Shown here in pieces: positions 36,990 to 59,525 of a stretch of DNA of 64,000 nucleotides. The DNA comes from Desulfovibrionaceae bacterium (GTDB lineage: Bacteria > Desulfobacterota > Desulfovibrionia > Desulfovibrionales > Desulfovibrionaceae). The notes under the pieces are model-generated. The model saw nothing but the letters and a program-made list of their open reading frames with translations. It was not told where the DNA came from and made no database searches. Each line of letters starts with the position of its first letter. Position 1 is the stretch's first letter. A program made the translations under genes and the position numbers. Where the stretch lies: assembly GCA_009773665.1 (NCBI GenBank), contig WSYE01000002.1, forward strand, positions 1 through 64,000, in the 5' to 3' direction.

Positions 36990-38183
36990 TCAGGCGAGAG
37001 AAAGCAGGTGTTCGATCACGGCCTGCTCGTCGAAATATGGCAACTTTTCCAGGTTGCGCAGGTCAGCCTCTATCACGCTTATGCCCATGGCCTCGATCTG
37101 CTTGAGGTTCAAGGGCGCCTGGTAGTCCTTGTTCCTGTCCAACAATACGAAATTCAGAAGCGACTGCGTGGGACGCGGCTTGGTGCAGCTGGCCCGCAGG
37201 TATTCCATCAGCCGCCGCACGCTGTCACCCAGGCCCAGGCCGAACTGTTCCGGGTCGCCCGCCGGGTTCGGGATGAACACCTTGGGGCACTGGGCCTTGG
37301 AGATGGCGTCCCCCACGCCCATGGGCAGCAGGTTGGCCACCAGGCTCGAATAGAAACTGCCGATGGGGTAGCAGATGAGCTCCGCCGCGCGGATCTGCTC
37401 TTTCACCTTGCGCCGCACGTTCACTTGCACCGGGCGCAGATCCTGTTGATTATCGCTCAGATACACACGCTTCACCGGCTGGGCGATAGGCCCGGCCTCT
37501 TTGCCCGTCAGCAGGTGCTGGCCCGCCAGCAGCGTGCCGTCGGCCATCTCCGACACCAGAGTCAGGTCCTTGTTGATGATGGGGCGCACCGTGCCGCGCG
37601 CCTTCACCAGCATGGTGAACATGTAGATCACCGGGTCTATCTGCCTGTTGTAGTTGAAGAAACCGCCAGCCAGAATCAGGTTGCCGATGCTCGCGCCGCG
37701 CAGGTCGAAGTCCGTCGTGGCCATGGCCTTGCGAAAGAACTTGAGGTGCGAACGGATGATCTTGCGCATGGGGTCCGGCACGTCCGCGACCAGCGGGTCA
37801 CGGCCCTCGATCATGGTCGCCAGAAGCGCCATGAGCTCGTCGTGCTCCAGATCTTTGGGCAGCCGGTGGGCGAACAGATTATAAATCTGGTGGTTGCCGT
37901 GCAGGGAGCGGTCGGCCAGCGCCATCAGGCGGTTGCGCAGGTCGCCCACGGCCAGCATTTTGAACGTGGTGCGCAGCTTGGCCGAGGAGCCGCCCGAGTC
38001 GAACGGTGTTATCAGGTGCGTGGAGTTGTGGGTGTAGCGCACCAGCTCCTTGGAGAGGTCACGCAGAGCCGTGCCGCCGCTGAAGAACAGTACGCGCGGG
38101 CCAAGCTCCGGGGCCTTCAGGAAGCGCGCGATCTTCACAGGGTCCGGCAGCGAGACCGTATGGGAGATGGTGACTGTGGGCAT
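36990..38183 (-). CDS. GAK system CofD-like protein
   Basis: A 397-residue protein of the CofD/YvcK superfamily: FFSGGTALRDLS at about 34-45 and FDSGGSSAKLR at 61-71 are the two substrate-binding loops, and LRGASIGNLILAGGF (about 160) is the third conserved block. True CofD transfers lactyl-phospho groups to deazaflavin, but no other F420 genes are near. Its neighbours are the set named GAK in TIGRFAMs as I remember it, which includes a CofD-related member. It is the last gene of the minus-strand cluster and is separated from the HprK-like gene by 271 bases full of repeats. Confidence 0.82.
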   Translation of the reverse strand: MPTVTISHTVSLPDPVKIARFLKAPELGPRVLFFSGGTALRDLSKELVRYTHNSTHLITPFDSGGSSAKLRTTFKMLAVGDLRNRLMALADRSLHGNHQIYNLFAHRLPKDLEHDELMALLATMIEGRDPLVADVPDPMRKIIRSHLKFFRKAMATTDFDLRGASIGNLILAGGFFNYNRQIDPVIYMFTMLVKARGTVRPIINKDLTLVSEMADGTLLAGQHLLTGKEAGPIAQPVKRVYLSDNQQDLRPVQVNVRRKVKEQIRAAELICYPIGSFYSSLVANLLPMGVGDAISKAQCPKVFIPNPAGDPEQFGLGLGDSVRRLMEYLRASCTKPRPTQSLLNFVLLDRNKDYQAPLNLKQIEAMGISVIEADLRNLEKLPYFDEQAVIEHLLSLA

Positions 38184-38195
38184 AAGATTTAAGAT

Positions 38196-38232
38196 TCGAG
38201 AGGAAACTTTTTGGAAAAAAGTTTCCTCTCGA
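38196..38232 (-). promoter_or_regulatory. Perfect hairpin just upstream of the CofD-like gene
   Basis: Arms 38196-38208 and 38220-38232 pair perfectly over 13 bases with an 11-base A/T-rich loop, starting only 12 bases upstream of the CofD-like start. In an mRNA running through the cluster it would hide or expose the start. It may instead be part of the local repeat mosaic. Confidence 0.5.
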
Positions 38233-38305
38233 GCTCTCCTTCAAAAACTTTCAATGGGCTTCGCGTCGACGCCAGCTTGGCTCAAAAACTACGCGAAGCC
38301 TAATG

Positions 38306-38340
38306 CAGGGTCCAGGGGGATGATCCCCTTGACGGGTCGA
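38306..38340. repeat. Possible degenerate relative of the intergenic repeat (copy E)
   Basis: The stretch reads GGGTCCAGGGGG, a short loop, CCCCTTGACGGGTCG, echoing the hairpin-plus-tail plan of the family at 55014-55063, but the tail differs. GACGGGTCG recurs at about 38363. The assignment is tentative. Confidence 0.35.
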
Positions 38341-38405
38341 AGGCTGAGCCCGGCGATAATCTCGACGGGTCGCCCTGCCGGGTGTTCGTGGTGTCGCGAA
38401 CGGGG

Positions 38406-38449
38406 CTTGCGCCTCGGGCAACGGATGCTCTTCAAATGCATCCTAGCCC
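38406..38449 (-). repeat. 44-nt conserved hairpin element, copy 2
   Basis: On the minus strand it shares 35 of 44 positions with 2639-2682. Here the arms are GGATGC and GCATCC, a perfect six-pair stem around ATTTGAAGA. It starts six bases after the HprK-like stop, in sense orientation. Confidence 0.65.
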
Positions 38450-38454
38450 CCAAA

Positions 38455-39531
38455 TTATCCCTTCAGGAACTTCGTCAACTCCTCGGCGGCGCGCTCGAAG
38501 TCGGCCCCGCCGGTCACTTCCAGCACCGTGCAATCTTTCAGAAACTCCACGTAGGCGTCTTCTGAAAAATCCGGCACGGGCATGTCCGTGCCGGAATCAT
38601 AGAACAGCCCGGTGCTCTTCATGAACGCGGGAAGCAGATCCCGGCGCTTTGCGATGTCCACCTGCGAGACTGTAAGCTCGCCGCCGCCGCGCTTCCAGTT
38701 GAGGATGGCCAGCCCCTTGGCGCGCGCTTCCAGATCGAAGCGCCCCACACCGTAACACTCGTCGATGAAGGCGTCGTACTTGTGCTCCAGGCTCCAGAGC
38801 TCCTCGATGGGCAGATCCTTGAAGGCCGCGCGGTCCTCGTCCGGCATGACGTCGGCCAGACTCGGGTTGTTCAGCACGGTTCCGGGGTTCACGCGGGGCA
38901 TCTTGGCCACGCCGTACACGGTCAGACCGCCGTCACCCCGGCCAAGCATCACCCGGTCGTTGGATACGAAGTTGAGCCCCAGGTTCATCATGTGCAGGGC
39001 CAGGGTGGACTTCCCCATGCCGGAGAACCCGGCAAGAGCCAGCCCGTCCCCGCGCCAGGAAACACCCGCCGCATGACCCAGCAGGCAACCCTGGTTCAGC
39101 TTGTATTCGATGAAGCGGTTGTTGATGAAATTGACGATCTGGTTCGGGTTGTCCAGGCAGGGTCCGAGCGCCAGATGGCAATCGCCGCCGAAGAGAAAGA
39201 GCATGCCGGTGAGGCGCTTGCGCACCACGCGCCCATCGGGCAGATCGGCCCACTCCTCCTTGATCTTGGACTTGCCCGGATCGGGTTCCTTGACCTGGTA
39301 GTCCAGCGCCAGGGTCTGCGGGTCGCACTCGATGGCCAGCACGTCGCACAGGGCCGGTCCGGAGGCGCGCAGGAAGTCGCGGAAATAGTCCTTCAGCCAG
39401 GCGACGAGGCGCTCGTCGTTGGAGCGCACGTCCACCCCGAAGCCTCCCAGAGCCAGCTTGAGTTCATGCGGGCAGGGGAAGCGCTCCACGAAAGGGGCGG
39501 CAAGATTCTTGATAGTGGTGGTCGTGCTCAT
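38455..39531 (-). CDS. GAK system HprK-related kinase (kinase B type)
   Basis: A 358-residue protein. The Walker A loop GFSGMGKSTLALHMM lies at about 167-181 and is followed by NFVSNDRVML, the HprK-like segment after the P-loop. HPr kinase/phosphorylase phosphorylates a serine on a carrier protein; no HPr gene is present in this window, so the target is unknown. It overlaps the ATP-grasp gene by four bases and so is co-translated with it. Members of the GAK group pair this kinase with an ATP-grasp and an amphi-Trp protein, as seen here. Confidence 0.85.
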   Translation of the reverse strand: MSTTTTIKNLAAPFVERFPCPHELKLALGGFGVDVRSNDERLVAWLKDYFRDFLRASGPALCDVLAIECDPQTLALDYQVKEPDPGKSKIKEEWADLPDGRVVRKRLTGMLFLFGGDCHLALGPCLDNPNQIVNFINNRFIEYKLNQGCLLGHAAGVSWRGDGLALAGFSGMGKSTLALHMMNLGLNFVSNDRVMLGRGDGGLTVYGVAKMPRVNPGTVLNNPSLADVMPDEDRAAFKDLPIEELWSLEHKYDAFIDECYGVGRFDLEARAKGLAILNWKRGGGELTVSQVDIAKRRDLLPAFMKSTGLFYDSGTDMPVPDFSEDAYVEFLKDCTVLEVTGGADFERAAEELTKFLKG

Positions 39532-40403
39532 CCGATGTTCTCCAGAACGTGTTTGGCGTACGCGCCTGCCGCGTCGATGCCGCAGGCGTCCAGCAGTCCC
39601 CTGAAGCCGCCGAAGGCCGACACCTCGAACACGATGGGGCCTTGGCTGGTTTCGGCGATGTCCACGCAGGTGAAGGCCATGTCGAAGAGCGACTGCGCCT
39701 TCTCAGCCAGTGCGATTATCTCGGGCGACGGCTCGTGGGCAACGTACTTGCCGCCAGCGTTGGTGGTTGTGTTCCAGCTGGAGCCGCCGGATTTGCGGGC
39801 GTAGGTGGCCAGATATTTTCCGCCCAGGAAGGTGACGCCCAGGTCTTTCTCCAAGGGCGGCAGCATCTTCTGAAGATACATGATGGTGTTGCCCGCAGCC
39901 TGGAAGGCTTCGATGCGCGCCCGCGCACCATCGCCCGCGCTGATGACCTCCATGCCCCTGGCCTTGGTGGAATAGAGCGGCTTGAACACGGCCTTGCCGA
40001 AGCGCTCCACGGCGTCCAGGGCCTCGTCCACGCTCTCGGTGATGACCGTGGCAGGCATGGGCAGGCCGCCTGCGCTGAGCGTCACGGTGCAGCTCAGGCG
40101 ATCTATGAGCCGCAGTATGGACGTGGGCTTGGAAAATATGGGCAACCCCTTCTGCTCCAGGAAGCGCAGCATCTCCAGCCGGTCCAGCACGTCCGGCGAA
40201 TACTGGGGCGCAATTTTTTTGACGATAAGCGCGTCCAGTTCCCCCAGGTCGTACTCGCCGAAGCGCACAGTGCCCTGCTCCAGGTCCAGGACCACCTTGT
40301 CCATATCGATGAGCAGGCGGAAACCGGTCAGCTGCCTGCACGCGTCGGCCAATATCTCGGAAGACCAGCCGTCCGAGATGCCGACGACACCTATCTTTTT
40401 CAT
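39528..40403 (-). CDS. GAK system ATP-grasp enzyme
   Basis: A 291-residue ATP-grasp fold ligase of the RimK-like type. Key segments are FKPLYSTKARGMEVIS (ATP lysine region), MYLQKMLPP, NTTTNAGGKYVAHEPS and the metal-binding IVFEVSAFGGFRG near the C terminus. ATP-grasp enzymes join a carboxylate to an amine or thiol through an acyl phosphate; the substrates here are not known. It overlaps the HprK-related kinase gene by four bases and follows the PhoU-kinase fusion by 16 bases. Confidence 0.87.
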   Translation of the reverse strand: MKKIGVVGISDGWSSEILADACRQLTGFRLLIDMDKVVLDLEQGTVRFGEYDLGELDALIVKKIAPQYSPDVLDRLEMLRFLEQKGLPIFSKPTSILRLIDRLSCTVTLSAGGLPMPATVITESVDEALDAVERFGKAVFKPLYSTKARGMEVISAGDGARARIEAFQAAGNTIMYLQKMLPPLEKDLGVTFLGGKYLATYARKSGGSSWNTTTNAGGKYVAHEPSPEIIALAEKAQSLFDMAFTCVDIAETSQGPIVFEVSAFGGFRGLLDACGIDAAGAYAKHVLENIG

Positions 40404-40419
40404 GCGTGACTCCAGGGGA

Positions 40420-42066
40420 TCAATAGATGAGGACGTCGTCGGGAAGAGTGAAGCCTTCCCAGGGTTTGCCGGATTGTCTGTACGCGTCGAGCTTGCGCAT
40501 CAGGTAGACGCCCCGGTGGAACATCTCCTTGGCGAAGCGGTGATTGAACTCGAAGCGGCTGGAGGTGATGAAGGAGCGGGTAAGCCCAAGCGTCAGGCGC
40601 ACCTCGAAGGTCGCGTCGCCGTTTTCGACGGCAAAGGCCCGCGAGAAGGACAGAAACTCCTTCATGACGTCGTCCAGGCGGGTGCGCAGCAGGCTGTCCA
40701 GCACGGGCATCCGGAAGTTGGAGATGAGAAACACCGACACATCCTGCACGAAGTCAGTGTCCTTGGAGCGGTGCAGGTCGATGTAGTGGATTCGTTGCTC
40801 TTCGTGGTTGTACACGATGTTGTTTATGTTGAAATCGCCGTGGATGAACACGCTGAAGGGGGCCTCGAAGAGCGCCTCCAGTTCGGCGGTGCGCTCAAGC
40901 AAGGCCTCAAATCCAGCAACAGGCACGCCCGTCATCTCCATGGCCGGAGTGCGGAAGGAGGGGTGCATGCGGTACACGTCGTCCAGGCGCTGGGTCAGCT
41001 GTTTCACGTACCCGGCCTTGACCGTGCGGTCGGTGCGGGTCTCCTGCCAGAGCTGGCGCACAGTCTGCTCCAGAATGAACGTGGCGTTGGCCGCTATCTC
41101 AGGCGCGCCCGAGAGCACCACTTCCTGGTAGGTGCAGCCGCCCAGGTACTCCATGAGCATGCTGGCCGAGTCGCCGTCCACATGGAAGGCCTGCACCTTG
41201 GGCGGCAGGCCGGGCATGATCGCCTCCCAGCGGCGGATGTTCTCGGTTTCGCAGCGCAGCTTCTCGGCATTGCCTTCCTTGAAGAGCACGCCGCTGGTGC
41301 GCGCCCCCTGGCGCGCGCCTTCCACCTTGCCGATGCGGCAGCCCGAGCGCGTGCCCCAGATGGAGTGGAACTCGCCGTCGGAGATGGGCACCTCGCGCCC
41401 CAGTTCCCCCAGGGTCTCCTTGAGGGCCTCGTACTGGTGGATCTTGAACTTCTCGCCCACGGCCGCAAAAATAATGGCCTCGCCGATGTTCAGGATGGTG
41501 TCGCCCATGCGTTCCAGATAGCGGAAGATGTTGTGGGCGGTGATGCAGTTCTCGGGGGACTCGCCCTTGCGCAGATCCTTCAGGATGACGTCGAAATTGG
41601 CCTTGAACAGGGCGTCCAGGGTCACTTCGGCGCGGCAGATCTTGAAGGCCAGGGTGATGTCCTGGTTGTAGAGGGCCTTCACCACCAGCCGCAGGGCTTT
41701 TGTGATCTCTGCGAAGAAGGCCTTGTACTCGTAGCGTTTGATGAAGTGCGGGTCGCGCAGATACTGCGACTGCATCACGATGTTCACGGCGTGGTCGGCC
41801 AGGCGCTCCAGGTTGGAGGTGATGATGTTCACCGCGCGGGCCAGGTCGATGGCCCGCTTGTCGCCGCCGAAGCCGGTATGGATGCGCGAGAAGCACTTGT
41901 TCTCGATGACGCTCTTCAGGTTGTCGATGTAGTCGTCGCGGCTTTCTATCTTGGCCACCAAGGCAGGATCGGGATTTTCGACCACCTTGAGGGTGTTCTC
42001 CACCTGCTTGGTCACTTCCAGGACCATGAACCGGAAGTTCTCTTCCACGCCTTCCAGGAAACGCAT
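40420..42066 (-). CDS. PhoU domain fused to an aminoglycoside phosphotransferase-like kinase
   Basis: A 548-residue two-part protein. Residues 1-235 are PhoU-like, all helical, with repeated E/D-rich helices (DDYIDNLKSVIE, NLERLADHAVNIV and, in the second repeat, RYLERMGDTILNIGEAI). Residues 240-548 carry a kinase fold of the APH/choline-kinase type: FIHGDFNINNIVY (about 410) is the catalytic loop and HYIDLHRS the metal-binding aspartate. PhoU proteins bind metal and report phosphate status; APH-type kinases phosphorylate small molecules. The fusion suggests a kinase tied to a phosphate or metal signal, which is inference. It starts three bases after the amphi-Trp stop. Confidence 0.83.
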   Translation of the reverse strand: MRFLEGVEENFRFMVLEVTKQVENTLKVVENPDPALVAKIESRDDYIDNLKSVIENKCFSRIHTGFGGDKRAIDLARAVNIITSNLERLADHAVNIVMQSQYLRDPHFIKRYEYKAFFAEITKALRLVVKALYNQDITLAFKICRAEVTLDALFKANFDVILKDLRKGESPENCITAHNIFRYLERMGDTILNIGEAIIFAAVGEKFKIHQYEALKETLGELGREVPISDGEFHSIWGTRSGCRIGKVEGARQGARTSGVLFKEGNAEKLRCETENIRRWEAIMPGLPPKVQAFHVDGDSASMLMEYLGGCTYQEVVLSGAPEIAANATFILEQTVRQLWQETRTDRTVKAGYVKQLTQRLDDVYRMHPSFRTPAMEMTGVPVAGFEALLERTAELEALFEAPFSVFIHGDFNINNIVYNHEEQRIHYIDLHRSKDTDFVQDVSVFLISNFRMPVLDSLLRTRLDDVMKEFLSFSRAFAVENGDATFEVRLTLGLTRSFITSSRFEFNHRFAKEMFHRGVYLMRKLDAYRQSGKPWEGFTLPDDVLIY

Positions 42067-42069
42067 GCG

Positions 42070-42390
42070 CTACACCTTTTCCCCGTCGGCGCCGGGCACG
42101 ATGGCCAGGGTGTCGTTCTTGGGTTCCTTGGCTTCCACGCTCTCGCGCCAGGCGAACTTCAGGGCCAGCTTCATGCGTCCGTCCTTGGCCTTGGCCTCCA
42201 CGGCGAAGCCGATCAACCCCTCGGGGCACAGCTCCATGTCCAGGTCCTTGCGGGAGAAGCGCATGCTGCCGCTGGCGAAACCGTCGGTCAGAGCCTGGAG
42301 ATATTTTGCCAGGGAGGCTGCGTCTTCCACGGCCTCGTAGCTGAACTTGCCCTCGCGGGCGGGCAGTCCCTGCTTGTCCTTCTTGTCCAT
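42070..42390 (-). CDS. Amphi-Trp domain protein (GAK system)
   Basis: A 106-residue protein. It has the amphi-Trp plan as I know it: a helix (EDAASLAKYLQALTDGFASG) followed by alternating strands (SMRFSRKDLDMELCPEG, GFAVEAKAKDGRMKLALKF) with a tryptophan in FAWRES. The function is unknown. The start was set at ATG 42390, which has GAGAGG upstream; a longer frame has none. It ends three bases before the PhoU-kinase gene begins. A small scaffold or carrier role is possible. Confidence 0.72.
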   Translation of the reverse strand: MDKKDKQGLPAREGKFSYEAVEDAASLAKYLQALTDGFASGSMRFSRKDLDMELCPEGLIGFAVEAKAKDGRMKLALKFAWRESVEAKEPKNDTLAIVPGADGEKV

Positions 42391-42465
42391 CAAGATACCT
42401 CTCGCTGCGTACGTCGTTGCGGACGTCAAACCATTAGCCCGGTCGCGTTACGGATTGACGCCGGG

Positions 42466-42515
42466 CCGGATACAACCGGACACAACCGGGCACCACCGGA
42501 CACCACCGGAAACGG
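42466..42515. repeat. Decamer tandem repeat, about five units
   Basis: Units of ten bases beginning CCGG follow one another: CCGGATACAA, CCGGACACAA, CCGGGCACCA, CCGGACACCA, CCGGAAACGG. They fill the gap between the PHP-like stop and the amphi-Trp start. It may be a spacer repeat or a protein-binding array. Confidence 0.7.
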
Positions 42516-42518
42516 GCC

Positions 42519-43694
42519 TCAGCCCAGCCTGGCCCGGTATTCGTCCATCACGGTCTTGCGGCTCACGCCGGACATGATGAGGCCCTTGGCGATGCCCAGG
42601 TCGTCCCAGGCTGGCTGAAGGCCTATTTCGCGGCTGACTTTTTCCTTGTCCTGCTCTTCGGGGCGCTTGAGTTTTTCGCTCATGTGGCAGTCGTCGCCCA
42701 TGAAGATGAGCATGGGGCGGTCCTTGTGGTAGCCGCGCCGGTTCTGGTCCAGCACCACATTGATGAGGAACTCCGTGTACTGCTGCGACTGCGGGTTCCA
42801 GACCTCGATGCCGTCCACGTCGTAGTTGCGCAAAAGAATGGGCCAGAACTGCTCCGGGTGCGGGATGACCACGCCAGCGCCGATGGAGCGGGCCTCCTCC
42901 ACCACTTCGGAGGCGCGGTAGAAGTAGGCCAGGGAGAAGTTCTCCTTCACCACCTCTTTCACGGCCTTGGCGTACACCTGCACCTTGTTGATAAAGCGCG
43001 CGTCGTAGAATTCGCGCAGGCAGTCCAGGTAGTTGCGCACCAGCTTGTTCTTGATGGCGTCCTGGGGGGTGCGTGTCTCGTTCTGCGTCAGGAGCGCCTT
43101 CAGGCGGCAGGCGTGGATGGAGGTGAAGTCGACGATGTGCTCGTCCGACCCGGCCACAGCTGCCGCAGCCTGACGGCGCTCGGCCCATTCGGGCTCGCAC
43201 AGGGCGTCCAGGTACTCGAACAGCTGCGAGGAGCGGTACTTGAACGTGTGCATGAGCATATTGCTCAGCACCCCGGCCCTTTCCATCTTGTCCGCCCGCA
43301 TGTGGATGAGCAGCTGCACCTTGCGGTTGAAGCCGTGGGAGTAGCAGTCCACCTCAACCCCGGCGTAGTCGCCCCAGGTGAGTATCTGATTGTGCTGGGT
43401 GGGGATGATGAGTTCGTCGCGCCGGTTGGGGTACATGGCGTTTATACGGTCGGAGATCATGTCCATGGGGACATGCTCCGGGTGCCAGTGCACCGCCAGC
43501 ACGTATTCCTGGCGGGGAAAGCGCGCCACGGGGTTGCGCACTGCGTCGCGCTGCTCCGGGGTGATCCCGGCGCAGGTCAGGGCCAGAAAGGTTTCGATGT
43601 CCCAGTCGGTCACCTCGCGCGGGATGGACTCAATGTCTATCTCCGTGCAGATGCGCGCGCCTGCCTTCAGCTGTTCCATGGAAGTCTCCGGCAT
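42519..43694 (-). CDS. PHP-like metal-dependent hydrolase domain protein in the GAK cluster
   Basis: A 391-residue soluble protein. Histidine/aspartate clusters (HWHPEHVP, PTQHNQIL, EVDCYSHGF, IPHPEQFWP and GDDCHMS near residue 340) look like the metal ligands of a PHP phosphoesterase or similar TIM-barrel hydrolase. I cannot place it in a named family with certainty. It lies between the XXXCH gene (10 bases upstream) and the amphi-Trp gene, in the same orientation, so it is part of the cluster. A phosphate-ester substrate would fit the kinases nearby (inference). Confidence 0.6.
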   Translation of the reverse strand: MPETSMEQLKAGARICTEIDIESIPREVTDWDIETFLALTCAGITPEQRDAVRNPVARFPRQEYVLAVHWHPEHVPMDMISDRINAMYPNRRDELIIPTQHNQILTWGDYAGVEVDCYSHGFNRKVQLLIHMRADKMERAGVLSNMLMHTFKYRSSQLFEYLDALCEPEWAERRQAAAAVAGSDEHIVDFTSIHACRLKALLTQNETRTPQDAIKNKLVRNYLDCLREFYDARFINKVQVYAKAVKEVVKENFSLAYFYRASEVVEEARSIGAGVVIPHPEQFWPILLRNYDVDGIEVWNPQSQQYTEFLINVVLDQNRRGYHKDRPMLIFMGDDCHMSEKLKRPEEQDKEKVSREIGLQPAWDDLGIAKGLIMSGVSRKTVMDEYRARLG

Positions 43695-43704
43695 GGCTGT
43701 GACC

Positions 43705-44304
43705 TTACGCGTAACGGGAGTGGCAGTCCCGCTTGAGTTGGACCAGTTCCTGGTACAGGGCCTTCAAGGCCTCGATGTCGGCGGCGTCCAGGGCGGCCTG
43801 GAAGGCGTCGGTCTTTTCCAGGTAGGCGGCGTAGAACTCGTCGCCCTTGCCCGGATAGCTGACCATGAGGCGCGAATCCGCGATGAAGCTCCGGGCTTCC
43901 AAAGCCGGAGGCATCTGCCCTGCGGCCAGGGATGCGCCAATGGCCTTGAAGGTTTGCTTCATGTGCTTTTTTAGCGATTTGTATTTGGGCAGCGCGCCGG
44001 AGTCGTCGTCCTCTTCATCCTCGTCGCCTGGGTAGTCGGATTCGCCGGTTGCGTCGGTCAGGGCTGTTCCGAGCGTCTTGGGGGGCTTGGGGAACTTGAC
44101 GGAGAGCTTGACGAAAAGGGTCTCTCCCATTCCGTGCTTCACGGACAACTTCATGCCCCTGCATCCATCAAGGCTCACCGGCCCACCCTGCGAGGGCAGC
44201 TCACCGGCTTCCACGCCGTCCGCCAGTTCGCGCAGCCAACCCGCGAGCGCGTTCTTCTCAACAACCGTCTCTGACTTGTATTTTCCGGTCATAATGGTGG
44301 GCAT
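43705..44304 (-). CDS. GAK system XXXCH protein
   Basis: A 199-residue protein ending in LKRDCHSRYA, the C-terminal Cys-His motif that gives the XXXCH family its name. Its first 75 residues (GWLRELADGVEAGELP, then alternating strands) resemble the amphi-Trp fold, and an acidic linker (DEDEEDDD) separates it from a helical C-terminal domain. The start is ATG 44304 with GGAGG upstream. It heads the minus-strand cluster, so its promoter should lie between 44305 and 44500. The Cys-His end may bind metal or carry a group; unknown. Confidence 0.75.
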   Translation of the reverse strand: MPTIMTGKYKSETVVEKNALAGWLRELADGVEAGELPSQGGPVSLDGCRGMKLSVKHGMGETLFVKLSVKFPKPPKTLGTALTDATGESDYPGDEDEEDDDSGALPKYKSLKKHMKQTFKAIGASLAAGQMPPALEARSFIADSRLMVSYPGKGDEFYAAYLEKTDAFQAALDAADIEALKALYQELVQLKRDCHSRYA

Positions 44305-49718: not shown

Positions 49719-50930
49719 CTATAGCTTGCTCTTCAGCACCATGTCCGTGATCGGCCCGCGCGAGCGGTCCCCCTTCAGCACGATGTGCCCGTAGTTCTGG
49801 AAACCCTTGAACTTGCGCACGATCCAGTTCAGCCCGTTGTTGGCCTCGTTCAGGTAGGGGTTGTCCACCTGCGAGGTGTCCCCCAGGCACACGCACTTCA
49901 CGCCCTCGCCCATGCGGGTCAGGAGCGCCCGCACCTCCGTGCGCGACAGGTTCTGGGCCTCGTCAATGATCACGAAGGCGTTCTCGATGTTCATCCCCCG
50001 CACGTAGCCAAGCGGCAGGATCTCGAACTTCTTCACGTTCAGGCGCAGGTTCTCGTCGTTGGGGTTCATGAAGATCTTGTTGGCCGGGCGCTGCTTGTGC
50101 AGCTTCACCAGCAGATCGAAGATGTATTTCATGTAGGGTTCCATCTTCTCGGCGATGTCGCCGGGCAGGAACCCCAGCTTGGCCCCGATCTCGATGGTGG
50201 GCTTCACCACGAACACCTTCTCGTACAGCTTGCGCTCCAGCACCATGTACAGGGCGGTGGCCAGGGCCAGGTAGGTCTTGCCGTACCCGGCCTCGCTCTG
50301 GATGGACACCAGATCCACGTGCTCGGCGCAGATGAGCTCCAGGGCCAGGTTCTGGTACACGGTGCGCGGCTTCAGGTTCCAGACGTCGTTCACGTAGCCG
50401 ATGGGCTTCTCGCCTTCCGGCCCCAGCAGAACGGGCTTGCCGTCGCGCCAGAGGAACGAGTTGGGCGGCGCGTTCTCGGCTTCCTCCACGAAGCCGGTGT
50501 ACAGCTGCGAGTCGGATTCGAAGGGCTTGGAGTCGCGCAGCTCCTCGCTCTTGATGTTCCTGAGCGACGCCTGGAGTTGCAGCAGGCGGTCGTTGGTGAC
50601 CAGGATGGGGTCTTTGACGCCCTGCATGTCCTGCGCGGTCTCGATTTCGCCCAGGATGTAGTTGTCCACGATGTGGGTGAAGGGCGAATCGGTGCCGCCG
50701 TTGCGGATGAAGGTGATGTGTTCGCGGTTCTCGATGAGGCTGGTGATGACTTTGGAGACGATGTGGCGGAGCTTGGGCGTGTTCTTGAGCGTCTCAAGCT
50801 CCATGAGCACGTGGTAGGGGATGAAAATGTTGTTTTCGTTGCCGTTTCGAAGTGCCAGCACCGAGTTGGGGTTTTCGATGAGGACGTTGGTGTCGAGGAC
50901 GTAATTCTTCTTGTTGCCTTCCTGGGTCAT
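49719..50930 (-). CDS. PIN-domain PhoH-family ATPase (YlaK-like)
   Basis: A 403-residue protein. Residues 1-130 are a PIN domain, opening with YVLDTNVLIENPNS (the first acidic residue) and carrying later acids that would bind metal for RNA cleavage. Residues 180-403 are a PhoH-type P-loop ATPase with Walker A EAGYGKTYLAL (about 210) and Walker B FVIIDEAQN. Such fusions act as RNA helicase/nucleases and are widespread. The start was placed at ATG 50930; a longer ORF has a basic lead with no other support. It is followed by a good terminator. Confidence 0.88.
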   Translation of the reverse strand: MTQEGNKKNYVLDTNVLIENPNSVLALRNGNENNIFIPYHVLMELETLKNTPKLRHIVSKVITSLIENREHITFIRNGGTDSPFTHIVDNYILGEIETAQDMQGVKDPILVTNDRLLQLQASLRNIKSEELRDSKPFESDSQLYTGFVEEAENAPPNSFLWRDGKPVLLGPEGEKPIGYVNDVWNLKPRTVYQNLALELICAEHVDLVSIQSEAGYGKTYLALATALYMVLERKLYEKVFVVKPTIEIGAKLGFLPGDIAEKMEPYMKYIFDLLVKLHKQRPANKIFMNPNDENLRLNVKKFEILPLGYVRGMNIENAFVIIDEAQNLSRTEVRALLTRMGEGVKCVCLGDTSQVDNPYLNEANNGLNWIVRKFKGFQNYGHIVLKGDRSRGPITDMVLKSKL

Positions 50931-51203
50931 TGGGCCTTCCTTTCGGGGACGTTCTGACCGCAATCTGCGGCGTCCCGAAGCTATCCGCATCATATGACGA
51001 ATCCATGACCGGCTCCCGAACTCCCATGACAGTCAATCCACGCGTCTATTCTCTTTGGCTGGCTCCTTTGTTTTCAACGCTCCTGAATGCTGCTTGGTCA
51101 GTTTACGCGCAAGCTGGCCGTAACACAATCGTCACACGCCCTAAACCAATCCCCAACCTTGGCGTGCCTATGGTCCGCGCGCGACCCACCCAAGGAGTAC
51201 CCC

Positions 51204-55216: not shown

Positions 55217-56086
55217 CTAGCGTTTGCGCTGCAACTTGGCCCGGTAGATGATGGCAATCAGGTTCATGCCCAAAACCAGCGCGATCAGCACCAGGGCCGT
55301 GCCGTACTGGAGGGGGCGGGTCTTTTCGATCTCGGTTCCTGCCGTGGCCAACACGTAGATGTGGTAGGGCAGGGCCATGACGTCAGAAAAGATGGACGTG
55401 GGCAGCTTGGGCGCGAAGAACACCGCCGCCGTGAACATGATGGCGGCAGTTTCGCCCGCAGCGCGAGAGAGCCCCAGGATCGCCCCGGTCAGCATGCCGG
55501 GCAGTGCGGCGGGCAGGACCACCATGCGGATGGTCTGCCACTTGGTGGCTCCGAGGCCCAGAGAGGCTTCGCGGTAAGTGCTGGGGACGGACTTCAGGGC
55601 CTCCTCGGCGGTGCCGATGATCACCGGCAGCACCAGGATGGCCAGGGTCAGAACGCCGGACAGGATGCTGACGCCCATGCCCAGGAAGGTGACGAAGAAG
55701 GCCAGCCCGAACAGGCCAAACACCACCGAGGGCACGCCTGCCAGGTTGGCGATTCCCAGGCGGATGAGGCGCACAGTCTTGCCGGGCCGGGCGTACTCGT
55801 TCAGGTAGATGGCGGTGCCCACTCCCAGCGGGAAGGACACCAGCATGGAGCCCACCGACAGGATCACTGTGCCGATGATGCAGGGCAGGATGCCTCCTGC
55901 GGTCATGGAGTCGCGCGGAGGCTGGCTTAAGAATTCCCAAGTGATGGCGGGCAGGCCGTTCACGAACAGGAAGATGCAGATGATGCCCAGGGCGGCCGCG
56001 TTTATGAGGGACGCGGACCTGAACACGGACCACATGATGGCCTGAGCGCCCCTGCGCCGCTTGATGAGCTTGTCGTCGATACGCAT
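55217..56086 (-). CDS. pstA: Phosphate ABC transporter permease PstA
   Basis: A 289-residue permease with six membrane segments. The EAA loop that docks on PstB is visible as TYREASLGLGATKWQTIRMVVLP, and the family segment GIANLAGVPSVVFGLFGLAFF is present. It imports phosphate across the inner membrane together with PstC. I set the start at ATG 56086, ten bases after the pstC stop; a longer frame start would lie inside pstC and gives a non-protein-like lead. It is the last gene before a terminator; no pstB or phoU follows. Confidence 0.93.
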   Translation of the reverse strand: MRIDDKLIKRRRGAQAIMWSVFRSASLINAAALGIICIFLFVNGLPAITWEFLSQPPRDSMTAGGILPCIIGTVILSVGSMLVSFPLGVGTAIYLNEYARPGKTVRLIRLGIANLAGVPSVVFGLFGLAFFVTFLGMGVSILSGVLTLAILVLPVIIGTAEEALKSVPSTYREASLGLGATKWQTIRMVVLPAALPGMLTGAILGLSRAAGETAAIMFTAAVFFAPKLPTSIFSDVMALPYHIYVLATAGTEIEKTRPLQYGTALVLIALVLGMNLIAIIYRAKLQRKR

Positions 56087-56096
56087 GGGGGTCGTC

Positions 56097-56990
56097 CTAC
56101 AAGGTGGCAGCGCCGACCTGCTTGTGCTTTTCGGCGATGTGCTGGGCGATGATGTTGAAGACCAGGGTAAAGAGGAACAGCACCACGCCGATGGCGAACA
56201 GGGCATGGTAGTGGTCCGACCGGAAAGGGGCCTCGGCCATTTCGGCGGCGATGGAGGACGGCATGGGCCGAAGAGGCGAAAAGATGGACGTGGGAATCAT
56301 GGCCGCTCCGCCCGCCACCATGAGCACGACCATGGTCTCGCCGATGGCGCGCGACATGCCCAGGATGATGGCCGTGGACACACCCGACAGCGACGACGGC
56401 AGGATGACCCGGCGGATGGTCTCCCAGTGCGTTGCGCCAAGGGCCAGGGAGGCTTCCTTGAGTTCGCGCGGCACGGCGTAAATGGCGTCCTCGGATACGG
56501 AACAGATTGTGGGCACGGACATGAAGGCCAGCATGAGGCTGGCGTTCAGAAGATTGAGGCCGGTGTTCAGATCGAAGGTTTCCTGCAGGAAGGGGGCGAC
56601 CACCACCATGCCGAAGAAGCCTATGACAACCGAGGGCAGCGCGGCCAAAAGCTCCACCAGGGGCTTGAAGACGCCGCGCATCCGGGGGGTGGCGATTTCG
56701 GCCAGGTACAGGGCAGTCATCACGCCCAACGGGATGGCGATGATGGAGGAAAAAACCGTCACGGCAATGGACGCCACGATCATGGGCAGGATGCCGAACT
56801 CCGGCGGGTCCGCCGTGGGGTACCAGAAGTTCCCGAAGAGGAAACCGCCCACGGACACGTGCTCGAAAATGGGCGCCCCTTCCAGGAAAAGGTAGACCAT
56901 GATCAGGCCCAGCGCGATGATCGAGGTCATGGCTGTGACCAGGAAGAGGTTGCGGATCAGGTCGTCTTTGAGCTTTCGGCTGATGGCCAC
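56097..56990 (-). CDS. pstC: Phosphate ABC transporter permease PstC
   Basis: A 297-residue permease, six TMs. The PstC-type EAA loop LKEASLALGATHWETIRRVILP and the segment LVELLAALPSVVIGFFGMVVV are typical. It follows pstS by 59 bases and precedes pstA by ten. The first 30 residues form the usual N-terminal helix. With PstA it makes the transmembrane channel of the high-affinity phosphate importer. Confidence 0.93.
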   Translation of the reverse strand: MAISRKLKDDLIRNLFLVTAMTSIIALGLIMVYLFLEGAPIFEHVSVGGFLFGNFWYPTADPPEFGILPMIVASIAVTVFSSIIAIPLGVMTALYLAEIATPRMRGVFKPLVELLAALPSVVIGFFGMVVVAPFLQETFDLNTGLNLLNASLMLAFMSVPTICSVSEDAIYAVPRELKEASLALGATHWETIRRVILPSSLSGVSTAIILGMSRAIGETMVVLMVAGGAAMIPTSIFSPLRPMPSSIAAEMAEAPFRSDHYHALFAIGVVLFLFTLVFNIIAQHIAEKHKQVGAATL

Positions 56991-57049
56991 GGCAGGCTCC
57001 GAAACCGGCCCCCTTCAGACGAAGAGGGCCGGTGGATGGTATTTGGAAG

Positions 57050-57862
57050 CTATTTCTTGACCGGGAAGTAACCGACTTCGGCGATGATCTTCTGGCCGCC
57101 GGCGGGGGACATGATGAAGTCCACGAACTTCATGACCTCGGGGGAGGCCTTCTCGGGGACGATGATAAACAGGGGGCGCGACACGGGGTAGGACTTGTCG
57201 GCCACGGTGGCTTCGCTTCCGGAGATGCCATTGACCTTGAGGGCCTTCACGGTCTTGTCCACGTAGGCGTAGCCGTCATAGGCGATGGCGGCCTTGTTCT
57301 TGCTCACCACCTGGAGCACCGCGCCGGAGGAAGCCTGAAGCAGCGCGCCGGGGTACACCTTGTCCTTGCCCATGACCAGCTCCTGCCAGGCTTCGTAGGT
57401 GCCCGACGAGGTGTCGCGGGAGATGAGCACGATTTCCCTGTCTTCGCCGCCCACTTCCTTCCAGTTCTTGATCTTGCCGGAGAACATGTCGCGCAACTGC
57501 TCGACCTTGAGGTCGGTGACAGTGTTGGCCGGGTTCACGATGGGGGCCAGGGCGTCCATGGCGATGACCATGGGCTTGACCACGTTGCCCTTCTCCTTGG
57601 CGGCCTCGAGCTCCTTGTCCTTCATCTCGCGCGAGGACATGGCGATGTTGGTGGTGCCGTCGATGATGGCCTTGATGCCGTTGCCGGAACCGCCGCCGGA
57701 CACGGTGATGTTCACACCGGAGTTGGCCTTCATGTAGTCTTCCACCATCTTCTGCATGGCGGGGAGCACGGTGGTGGAGCCGTCCACGCGGATGGCGGTC
57801 TGGGCCTGGGCCACGGTGGCGGTCAGCATGATCGCAAAAAGGAACAGTGCGAATTTTTTCAT
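57050..57862 (-). CDS. pstS: Phosphate-binding periplasmic protein PstS
   Basis: A 270-residue protein with a signal peptide (MKKFALFLFAIMLTATVAQA) and phosphate-binding residues in IRVDGSTTVLP, SGGGSGNGIKAI, MSSREM and RDTSSGTYEAWQ, the classical set. It is a short form of the family. The start at ATG 57862 has GGAGG seven bases upstream. A Pho-box-like site lies 79-96 bases upstream, so phosphate limitation should induce the operon. It carries phosphate to PstCA. Confidence 0.93.
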   Translation of the reverse strand: MKKFALFLFAIMLTATVAQAQTAIRVDGSTTVLPAMQKMVEDYMKANSGVNITVSGGGSGNGIKAIIDGTTNIAMSSREMKDKELEAAKEKGNVVKPMVIAMDALAPIVNPANTVTDLKVEQLRDMFSGKIKNWKEVGGEDREIVLISRDTSSGTYEAWQELVMGKDKVYPGALLQASSGAVLQVVSKNKAAIAYDGYAYVDKTVKALKVNGISGSEATVADKSYPVSRPLFIIVPEKASPEVMKFVDFIMSPAGGQKIIAEVGYFPVKK

Positions 57863-57925
57863 CTTGTTGCCTCCAAGGGGAATTGTTGAAATAGCGCCGG
57901 AGACTCGGGTCCGGCAGCGTGCAGA

Positions 57926-57958
57926 CCCTAGGAGTAACATATTACAGTTCTGTGACGA
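57926..57958 (-). promoter_or_regulatory. Pho-box-like site with a -10 element, upstream of pstS
   Basis: On the minus strand 57958-57941 reads TCGTCAC-AGAA-CTGTAAT, a 7-4-7 direct repeat close to the E. coli Pho box. The second half matches CTGTCAT at six of seven. A TAGGGT word (57931-57926) lies ten bases further, the spacing expected for PhoB-activated promoters. A lone TTGTCAC half-site lies upstream near 57974-57980. Confidence 0.45.
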
Positions 57959-57994
57959 CGGACAAGAGAATATGTGACAACGCGCAAAGCAAGT

Positions 57995-58024
57995 GGCTCC
58001 CGGACACGGTGTCGTCCGGGAGCC
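57995..58024 (-). terminator. Hairpin terminator after nfnB
   Basis: GGCTCCCGGA and TCCGGGAGCC pair perfectly over ten bases (57995-58004, 58015-58024). It lies 31 bases beyond the nfnB stop. The U-run on the minus strand is weak. Confidence 0.55.
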
Positions 58025-58055
58025 GTGGTTTTGCGTAGCGGCGGAAACGGCGCGA

Positions 58056-59525
58056 TCAGTCCTGCGCAGCGGGCACGCCGCCGTGCAACGGGGGGACGTC
58101 CTGGGGGGCGTCGTCTCCCAGGAGCCTGCGGGCGATCTCCTTGGCGGCGCGGCGTCCCGCGCCCATGGCCAGGATGACCGTGGCCGCGCCGGTGACGATG
58201 TCTCCGCCAGCGAAGACGTTCGCCATGCTGGTCTCGCCCGTATCCTCATTCACCTCAATGTAGCCGCGCCGGTTGCGTTCAAGGCCCGGCGTGGCCTCCA
58301 GCAGCAGCGGGTTTGGCCCGGTGCCCACGGCGATCACGGCCAGGTCGCAGGGGATGTCGAAGTACTCGCCCGTGCAGTTGGGGGTGCAGCGCCCAGCCTC
58401 GTCCGGGTCGCCGAGCTTCATGCGCTCAAGCGTGACTCCGGTGACGCGCCCGTTCTCGTCCCCGGCGAAACGTACCGGGTTGGTGAGGATCTCCAGGTGC
58501 AGCCCCTCGTCCAGGGCGTGCTCCAGCTCCTCCAGGCGGCAGGGCATCTCGTTCTTGGTGCGGCGGTAGACCAGGCTGACCTTGTCCGCGCCCATGCGCA
58601 TGGCAGTGCGGGCCGCGTCCATGGCTACGTTGCCGCCGCCCACGACCACCACCTGCTTCCCGAGGAAGGGCGGGGTGTCATATTCGGGGAAGGCGTAGGC
58701 CCGGCCCAGGTTGGCGCGCGAGAGGTACTCGTTGGCTGAAAACACGCCGGTCATGTCTTCTCCGGGAACCTTCAGGAAGCGCGGCAGGCCAGCGCCCACG
58801 CCGATGAACACGGCCTGGCAGCCCTCGTCAAAGAGGTCCTGCACAGTGATGGTGCGGCCTCCCACCCAGTTCAGGTGGAATTCCACGCCGTTCTCGGTCA
58901 TGGCCTGCACCTCGCGCTTGACGATGGCCTTGGGCAGCCTGAACTCCGGGATGCCGTAGACCAGCACGCCGCCTGGCTCGTGCAGGGCCTCGTAGACGTG
59001 CACCTTTATGCCGAGCGTGGACAGGTACCCGGCCACGGTGAGGCTGGCCGGGCCGCCGCCGATGCAGGCCACCTTCAGCTCCTCGCGGATCATGGGGCAG
59101 GCCTTGTCGCCGGTGAGCTGCTCGCAGGCGCTGCGGGCCGCGTATTCATCGGCGGTAAAGCGCTCCAGGCGTCCTATGCACACGGGCTCGCCCTTCTTGG
59201 CCAGCACGCAGGCACCCTCGCACTGCACTTCCTGGGGGCAGACGCGCCCGCAGACCGCAGGCAGGGAGTTGGTCTCGCGGATGGCTTTGTAGGCTGCGGT
59301 CACGTCGCCCTTCTGCAGGTGGCCGATGAAGGCCTTGATGGGCACCTCCACCGGACAGCCGATCTGGCACACAGGCTTCTTGCATTGCAGGCAGCGGGCG
59401 GCCTCGGCCACGGCCATGTCCAGGGTGTAGCCTGTGGTCACTTCGCTGAAGTTCTTCACCCGCTCTTTGGCGGGCTGCTCGGGCATGGGGGTCCTGGGGG
59501 CCAGTTTCCTAGGCTTCTTGTCCAC
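58056..59525 (-). CDS. nfnB: NfnB-type large subunit (NADPH-dependent, GltD-like, electron bifurcating)
   Basis: A 489-residue flavoprotein. Residues 40-120 bind two iron-sulfur clusters (CLQCKKPVCQIGCPVEVP and CGRVCPQEVQCEGACV). The FAD motif is CIGGGPASLTVAGYLS (about 156) and the NADP motif VVVGGGNVAMDAARTA (about 290). This is the large subunit of Nfn (NADH-dependent ferredoxin:NADP oxidoreductase), also annotated as glutamate synthase small chain or SudA. It overlaps the small-subunit gene by 17 bases. In sulfate reducers it links NADPH, NADH and ferredoxin pools. Sulfide dehydrogenase is the alternative name. Confidence 0.85.
   Translation of the reverse strand: MDKKPRKLAPRTPMPEQPAKERVKNFSEVTTGYTLDMAVAEAARCLQCKKPVCQIGCPVEVPIKAFIGHLQKGDVTAAYKAIRETNSLPAVCGRVCPQEVQCEGACVLAKKGEPVCIGRLERFTADEYAARSACEQLTGDKACPMIREELKVACIGGGPASLTVAGYLSTLGIKVHVYEALHEPGGVLVYGIPEFRLPKAIVKREVQAMTENGVEFHLNWVGGRTITVQDLFDEGCQAVFIGVGAGLPRFLKVPGEDMTGVFSANEYLSRANLGRAYAFPEYDTPPFLGKQVVVVGGGNVAMDAARTAMRMGADKVSLVYRRTKNEMPCRLEELEHALDEGLHLEILTNPVRFAGDENGRVTGVTLERMKLGDPDEAGRCTPNCTGEYFDIPCDLAVIAVGTGPNPLLLEATPGLERNRRGYIEVNEDTGETSMANVFAGGDIVTGAATVILAMGAGRRAAKEIARRLLGDDAPQDVPPLHGGVPAAQD

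Follow-up and report, generated by a model that had tools for sequence, protein, structure and literature searches.

The locus treated here, seven adjacent genes at positions 36990-44304 of a 64,000-nucleotide window (the whole stretch of DNA that was analysed, from contig WSYE01000002.1 of the Desulfovibrionaceae assembly GCA_009773665.1), raises the question of what the proteins of the so-called GAK system do for the cell. The original prediction for this DNA, made from its sequence, held that the seven genes form a GAK-type cluster with a PHP-like and a PhoU-kinase member, and that its enzymes build or charge a phosphorylated conjugate on a carrier. All seven open frames are present on the minus strand (third-position GC 0.76-0.89), and a profile search confirms the GAK cluster as real: five of the seven proteins, encoded by adjacent genes, exceed the curated NCBIfam cut-offs of the GAK families (TIGR04354, TIGR04355, TIGR04356, TIGR04357 and TIGR04358). 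Our answer is that the cluster may encode a cytosolic make-and-break cycle for a phosphorylated product that is tied to the phosphate status of the cell, a tentative reading to which we give not quite an even chance.

The first element of this answer is the gene set itself. Two proteins without a name in the NCBIfam GAK set, a PhoU-APH fusion and a PHP-like protein of 391 residues, are regular members of the cluster. A scan of public genomes with an alignment of the ATP-grasp protein gave 231 stretches encoding a relative, of which 80 were kept; their record titles name Deltaproteobacteria, Gamma- and Alphaproteobacteria and several other groups. Together with 15 stretches from genomes of the window's phylum, the window, and contig C41 of its own genome, this makes 97 loci. 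L166-L170, whose ATP-grasp matches lie below the GAK cut-off, were excluded from locus and phosphate counts, and each count takes only loci with enough flank, with n varying from count to count. The PhoU-APH gene immediately precedes the ATP-grasp gene in 82 of the 87 loci with room (the misses are L103, L116, L132, L160 and L161), and the gene for the HprK-like kinase lies immediately downstream in 82 of 92, or within 9 kilobases (kb) in 69 of 73. Amphi-Trp genes occur in 57 of the 62 full-flank loci, with two or more copies in several loci, and CofD in 51 of 69 loci with enough flank. Co-occurrence was also counted among 247 genomes of the phylum, using the family cut-offs for grasp_GAK, HprK_rel_B, CofD_rel_GAK and XXXCH, E-values up to 0.001 for the PHP-like protein and up to 1e-60 for PhoU-APH; these counts, and the Fisher p-values, ignore kinship. 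All 16 genomes with grasp_GAK above its cut-off hold the PHP-like protein (20 genomes, thus 4 others) and PhoU-APH (18 genomes, the 2 others both having the PHP-like protein as well). HprK_rel_B is above cut-off in 15 genomes, all inside the 16, CofD_rel_GAK in 22 (13 of the 16 and 9 others) and XXXCH in 18 (11 of them among the 16). Gene content is thus tightly linked, and the order recurs across many species, so the expectation that these genes would co-occur in other genomes was borne out.

The second element is an exchange of genes. The PHP-like protein is probably the phosphohydrolase of the cluster, because its gene is exchanged with those of four phosphohydrolase types, which is the best evidence for this assignment. 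Two architectures can be distinguished. Type A loci contain the PHP-like gene and often XXXCH, and belong, by their record titles, to Deltaproteobacteria, Nitrospirae, Phycisphaerales and others. Type B loci, mostly from alpha- and gammaproteobacteria, are without PHP-like and XXXCH genes, have CofD on the opposite strand in many cases, and add to the core of PhoU-APH, ATP-grasp and HprK-like genes a NUDIX protein, a SixA-NUDIX protein, a branch-1 histidine phosphatase and a calcineurin-like phosphoesterase (identified by Pfam, one representative each). In the 62 full-flank loci, relatives of these four types are found in none of the 31 with a PHP-like gene versus 27 of the 31 without it, and the count was the same with single seeds and with family models built from 27-33 relatives each (E up to 1e-3); as the types were sought as relatives of the type B representatives, unrelated hydrolases would escape. 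Neither the PHP-like gene nor any of the four types is present in L074, L111, L160 and L161, and the genomes of L160 and L161 hold a PHP-like gene at another site. L160 itself (genome G241) has an unusual layout, with the grasp and HprK-like genes followed by peroxiredoxin-like and phosphotransacetylase-like genes (named by eye) and then by CofD; the PHP-like, PhoU-APH and XXXCH genes and a second HprK-like gene of G241 lie on another contig.

The PHP-like protein carries the motifs HWHPE, TQHN, GVEVD, HPEQFWPI and GDDxH, and its residues H69, H71, H101, E114, H131, H279, D334, D335 and H337 are kept in at least 97% of 38 homologues (this threshold and the numbering of the window protein apply to all enzymes below). 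By eye, the order of these residues resembles that of the PHP metal motifs, which we take to be HxH, H, E, H, HP and DxH. The window protein itself has no match in Pfam or NCBIfam at E up to 0.1.

The enzymes of the cluster look active, as catalytic residues are conserved in the APH, HprK-like, ATP-grasp and CofD-like proteins. The PhoU-APH fusion that had been predicted stands, with both domains above their Pfam gathering scores, PhoU at about residues 4-210 and the APH-type kinase at about 260-460. K263, E273, HGDxNxxN (H409-G-D411, N413, N416) and D430 are conserved in 85 homologues and invariant in 12, so that the hallmarks of APH-type kinases, which we take to be the ATP lysine, the HGDxNxxN loop and the metal aspartate, are all present in the C-terminal half. 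In the HprK-like protein, the P-loop residues, H153 and D192 are kept in 86 homologues, N191 occupies the position that is presumably the first aspartate of HprK, and the hpr-ser model reaches 23.8 against a cut-off of 240. The ATP-grasp protein, whose relatives in the PDB are RimK/LysX-type ligases, keeps K141, D248 and E260 in 97 homologues and has S262 where the aligned RimK/LysX chains carry an asparagine. The CofD-like protein has the motifs FDSGGSSAKLR and GDLRNRL, with the GGSS region conserved in 58 homologues.

How could these enzymes work together? The PhoU domain would read the status of phosphate transport and gate its own kinase domain. The APH and HprK-like kinases would phosphorylate a substrate, which may be a small molecule or else a side chain of an amphi-Trp protein, and the RimK-like ATP-grasp protein might, judging from its ligase relatives, couple an acid with an amine or comparable group of this product. 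The CofD-like protein could bind a nucleotide-activated group, either as donor or as sensor. The PHP-like protein would hydrolyse a phosphate or pyrophosphate, and in many alpha- and gammaproteobacterial loci the histidine phosphatase, calcineurin-type, NUDIX and SixA-NUDIX set would take over this step. XXXCH may be an accessory that is optional and cytochrome c'-like, with a possible role in sensing redox state or haem. The conjugate of the original prediction survives in part, since two kinases plus a ligase fit the making of a phosphorylated product; its charging on the Cys-His end of XXXCH does not.

What alternatives exist for such a cycle? RimK and LysX relatives have protein termini or carrier proteins as their targets, and the ligase and the two kinases of the cluster might likewise modify the amphi-Trp protein as a carrier, in which case phosphate genes would be near only through a dependence of the donor state on phosphate. 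The wide presence of amphi-Trp genes and their multiplication in several loci agree with a modification of peptides or proteins, but the exchange of phosphohydrolases and the PhoU fusion point to the turnover of a phosphate product, and we regard modification of a protein as rather unlikely.

The third element of the make-and-break cycle, its tie to phosphate, had been absent from the expectations of the original prediction. About 11 kb upstream of the cluster and on the same strand lie the frames of a phosphate transporter (Table 1). Phosphate genes were searched with eight seed proteins of what we take to be the Pst, PhoU, Pit and Na/Pi families (Na/Pi confirmed by Pfam), all of which were taken from GAK or lone-member loci, so that the search is biased toward those loci; the PstC seed is the gene of the window itself. 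At least one phosphate-transport or PhoU gene was found near 20 of 95 GAK loci (1.53 megabases, Mb) versus 1 of 40 control windows (0.8 Mb), the controls being 20-kb windows from seven GAK-bearing genomes of the window's phylum, and this enrichment has a p-value of 0.008 by loci and 0.002 by length. Members of the system that stand alone show similar neighbours. A lone CofD_rel_GAK gene lies behind pstS-C-A-B-phoU and ahead of an MgtE gene (L183), two others, both of a single genus, have Pit-like genes close by (L181 and L182, with the Pit seed coming from L182), and a PHP-like gene that stands alone has a PhoU gene in its neighbourhood (L185). In genome G246, the PHP-like gene stands beside PhoU-APH without grasp, HprK-like and CofD genes. 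Between the cluster and the pst genes of the window, about 5 kb upstream of the cluster, there is also a gene that we take to encode a PhoH/PIN-type ATPase (49719-50993).

Might the phosphate association be a coincidence of neighbourhood, or a consequence of the shared ancestry of the loci, with a GAK function unrelated to phosphate? A number of observations speak against our reading, and some of them favour exactly this possibility. In 75 of the 95 loci there is no phosphate gene within the stretch examined, the controls come from only seven genomes, all of the window's phylum, the seeds were all drawn from GAK or lone-member loci, with one of the 20 positive loci (L127) resting on its own seed, and the loci are related to one another and thus not independent. 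In the 247 phylum genomes, no relation to PPK1 can be demonstrated (0 of 16 GAK genomes versus 27 of 231 others, p 0.23, not significant). The gene set itself is not free of gaps, as CofD is missing from 15 of the 62 full-flank loci, genome G160 lacks HprK-like and CofD genes though 4.8 kb follow its grasp gene, and the set is split over two sites in G241 and G301. Finally, none of 23 members of the PHP-like family matches a PHP model of Pfam or NCBIfam, so that the label given by the original prediction fits the order of the conserved residues and rests on this motif pattern, and hhalign of the family against four PHP-glycosyltransferase proteins gave a very weak probability of 1.2%, yet the highest of five profiles. 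Coincidence is nevertheless at odds with the fusion of PhoU to a kinase whose gene adjoins the grasp gene in nearly all loci with room, and with the lone members that likewise sit by phosphate genes, and we therefore hold it to be unlikely.

The phosphate neighbours could alternatively belong to a reserve, with the kinases building a store of a sugar or polyol that is highly phosphorylated or pyrophosphorylated, comparable to the glucose pentakis(diphosphate) that has reportedly been found in Desulfovibrio gigas. The Pst, Pit, Na/Pi and MgtE neighbours, the NUDIX and histidine phosphatase partners of the type B architecture and the absence of PPK1 from the 16 GAK genomes would suit such a store. 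The PPK1 figure, however, is not significant, and the ATP-grasp protein groups with ligases and not with sugar kinases. The D. gigas compound was not found in the library searched, and the main text of the D. gigas genome paper (PMC4287179) mentions neither polyphosphate, pentakis, tripolyphosphate, phosphorus, electron-dense nor HPr. A phosphate reserve appears quite unlikely to us.

In case of XXXCH, an accessory with a wider life of its own is more likely than a core carrier, because the domain is found away from GAK genes, beside parA-like and redox genes. It is present in 23 of the 31 loci with a PHP-like gene and in none of the 31 full-flank loci without it; among genomes without the PHP-like gene at the locus, G241 and G301 carry XXXCH at another site. 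Short XXXCH proteins (95-118 amino acids) are encoded immediately ahead of a parA-like gene, recognised by its ATP motif, in all 14 loci of the taxonomic order that were examined (L191, L192, L249-L260), and one such pair is found in the window's own genome (XXXCH at C7:5039-5329), which makes the short form a possible uncharacterised partner of chromosome partitioning. The neighbours of ten lone long XXXCH genes (L189, L190, L241-L248) include ferredoxin with aldehyde:ferredoxin oxidoreductase, molybdopterin oxidoreductase and NiFe hydrogenase, with redox neighbours at L190, L241, L242, L245, L247 and L248 (assigned by Pfam for L241, L245 and L247, by likeness for the others), and would fit a haem or redox role.

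An alignment was made of 29 of 53 distinct XXXCH domains (49 of which have at least 88 residues), with near-duplicates removed by hand; the cysteine and histidine are invariant in these 29 and present in 25 of 25 domains of a second set (L260 is in both). When the second half of XXXCH is aligned with cytochrome c', the Cys-His pair falls on the second cysteine and the histidine of CxxCH, and the CH-x-x-Y end is in register; the full haem motif is absent, as the first cysteine is missing. At E up to 1 in Pfam, 17 of the 29 domains match cytochrome C' (best 2.5e-6) and 13 match b562 (best 3.8e-5), whereas neither is among the families listed for the reversed sequences; the window domain scores 14.4 against cytochrome C', below the gathering score of 26.5. 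In the PDB, the first 23 of 37 matches of one XXXCH profile have cytochrome c' or cytochrome c in their titles (best 1.3e-4), and with the 29-domain profile the top two matches are designed helical proteins, ahead of cytochrome c'. Helix composition inflates these E-values, as a reversed profile reached designed repeat proteins down to 3.3e-11, with no cytochrome, and we therefore prefer the Pfam counts with their reversed control. At the N-terminal end of the window protein, no signal peptide is apparent on inspection. Although the Cys-His pair is so well conserved and XXXCH frequent in type A loci, the charging of a phosphorylated conjugate on this pair is unsupported and highly improbable, as XXXCH is absent from all 31 full-flank loci without the PHP-like gene, is above its cut-off in just 11 of the 16 grasp_GAK genomes, is also found next to parA and redox genes where GAK is lacking, and has its CH aligned with the haem motif of cytochrome c'.

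Table 1. Features of the GAK locus and of its surroundings in the window (positions in the window; scores in bits, NCBIfam cut-offs in brackets).
Feature	Position	Strand	Evidence or remark
CofD-like protein, CofD_rel_GAK, 397 amino acids	36990..38183	-	TIGR04357 526.7 (340); Pfam CofD 131
271-bp intergenic gap with inverted repeats	38184..38454	no strand	between HprK-like and CofD-like genes
HprK-related kinase B, 358 amino acids	38455..39531	-	TIGR04355 HprK_rel_B 517.5 (200)
RimK-like ATP-grasp protein, grasp_GAK, 291 amino acids; 4-bp overlap with next gene	39528..40403	-	TIGR04356 445.7 (300)
PhoU-APH fusion, 548 amino acids	40420..42066	-	Pfam PhoU 88.5 and APH 29.3
Amphi-Trp domain protein, 119 amino acids from TTG	42070..42429	-	TIGR04354 59.4 (31)
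PHP-like protein, 391 amino acids, unnamed family	42519..43694	-	motif pattern
Amphi-Trp-like N-terminal half and XXXCH domain, 199 amino acids	43705..44304	-	TIGR04358 103.5 (40)
PstA, PstC and PstS open frames of a phosphate ABC transporter	55220..58249	-	phmmer 590, 619 and 118; context, outside the cluster

The genes are read in the order XXXCH, PHP-like, amphi-Trp, PhoU-APH, ATP-grasp, HprK-like and CofD-like, and are spaced by short gaps or an overlap of 4 base pairs (bp), save for the gap listed in Table 1. An ATG is available 13 codons into the amphi-Trp frame, the XXXCH frame may start at 44304 (ATG) or 44364 (TTG), and the amphi-Trp half of the latter protein is weak (17.4 bits, under the cut-off). 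The intergenic gap contains a perfect 17-nucleotide inverted repeat at 38196-38232 and a second inverted repeat of 87% at 38252-38305. As the stretch at about 38193-38355 has dozens of partial matches on other contigs of the same genome, the dispersed and partly palindromic element at 38196-38355 looks like a REP-type repeat. The window's genome is a bin (66% complete, 2.5% contamination), and its contig C41 (L009) carries another complete, divergent GAK cluster. The 5.8-kb flank of this cluster has 65-73% nucleotide identity over the longer matches in six genomes of the same genus, whereas the ATP-grasp protein of the window has 83-98% amino-acid identity to the same six genomes, with one match each. 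These identities are not of the same kind, but with the flank so far from the genus a duplication was set aside; C41 is probably foreign, having entered the bin from a different species, and a gain of the cluster by transfer is conceivable. A role in anti-phage defence was dropped, as none of the seven proteins has a PADLOC match at 0.001. RNA families and tRNAs were searched for in the window, with none found, and promoter-like sites (1 versus 1.1 expected) and terminator-like sites (10 versus 6.1 expected, standard deviation 2.5) were not used.

What is new here is the tie to phosphate, the two constant members without a name and the clean exchange between the PHP-like protein and other phosphohydrolases; the name GAK itself was already known. 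In the library searched, no relevant paper turned up on the GAK system, XXXCH, amphi-Trp, HprK-related and CofD-like proteins or PhoU-kinase-PHP combinations, and neither XXXCH nor GAK is present in the main text of PMC12389409, which the search had listed for XXXCH. Taken together, the three observations make a testable pathway out of what was a list of orphan enzymes and would, if the reading is true, reveal both a hydrolase family and a branch of phosphate control in bacteria that are new.

How does the cluster compare with known systems? With the GAK system of NCBIfam it shares all five named members, which are above their cut-offs and adjacent here. No NCBIfam model covers the PHP-like protein or PhoU-APH, the window protein being below the PhoU and APH cut-offs and the best E-values of 12 members implying the same, and the descriptions of GAK models that were seen give no function. 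The N-terminal 210 residues of the fusion match PhoU in Pfam, NCBIfam and the PDB, but the protein differs from PhoU in scoring below the NCBIfam equivalog cut-off (89.4 versus 130.25) and in being joined to a kinase domain. XXXCH resembles cytochrome c' and b562 in the Pfam matches of its individual members, differing by the cysteine missing from CxxCH, and the CofD-like protein shares the Pfam CofD match and the GGSS motif with CofD/YvcK proteins, with the YvcK model below cut-off (115.5 versus 196). A further comparison is with inositol pyrophosphate signalling. The eukaryotic inositol pyrophosphate kinase has an ATP-grasp fold. The portions of three papers on this metabolism consulted here describe a histidine phosphatase domain, NUDIX hydrolases and a control by phosphate (PMC9765450, PMC11836120, PMC12678693). 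GAK might thus be a prokaryotic phosphate-signalling pathway around a (pyro)phosphorylated small molecule, which the kinases and the ATP-grasp protein would make, and which the PHP-like protein, as a new hydrolase family, or the set of histidine phosphatase, NUDIX and calcineurin-type proteins would destroy, with the PhoU-kinase reporting phosphate status; in this specific form, we consider the idea distinctly unlikely. It would be a functional counterpart without homology: as far as these portions go, the toolbox of folds and the phosphate theme are similar, whereas the GAK ATP-grasp protein differs in being RimK/LysX-like by sequence.

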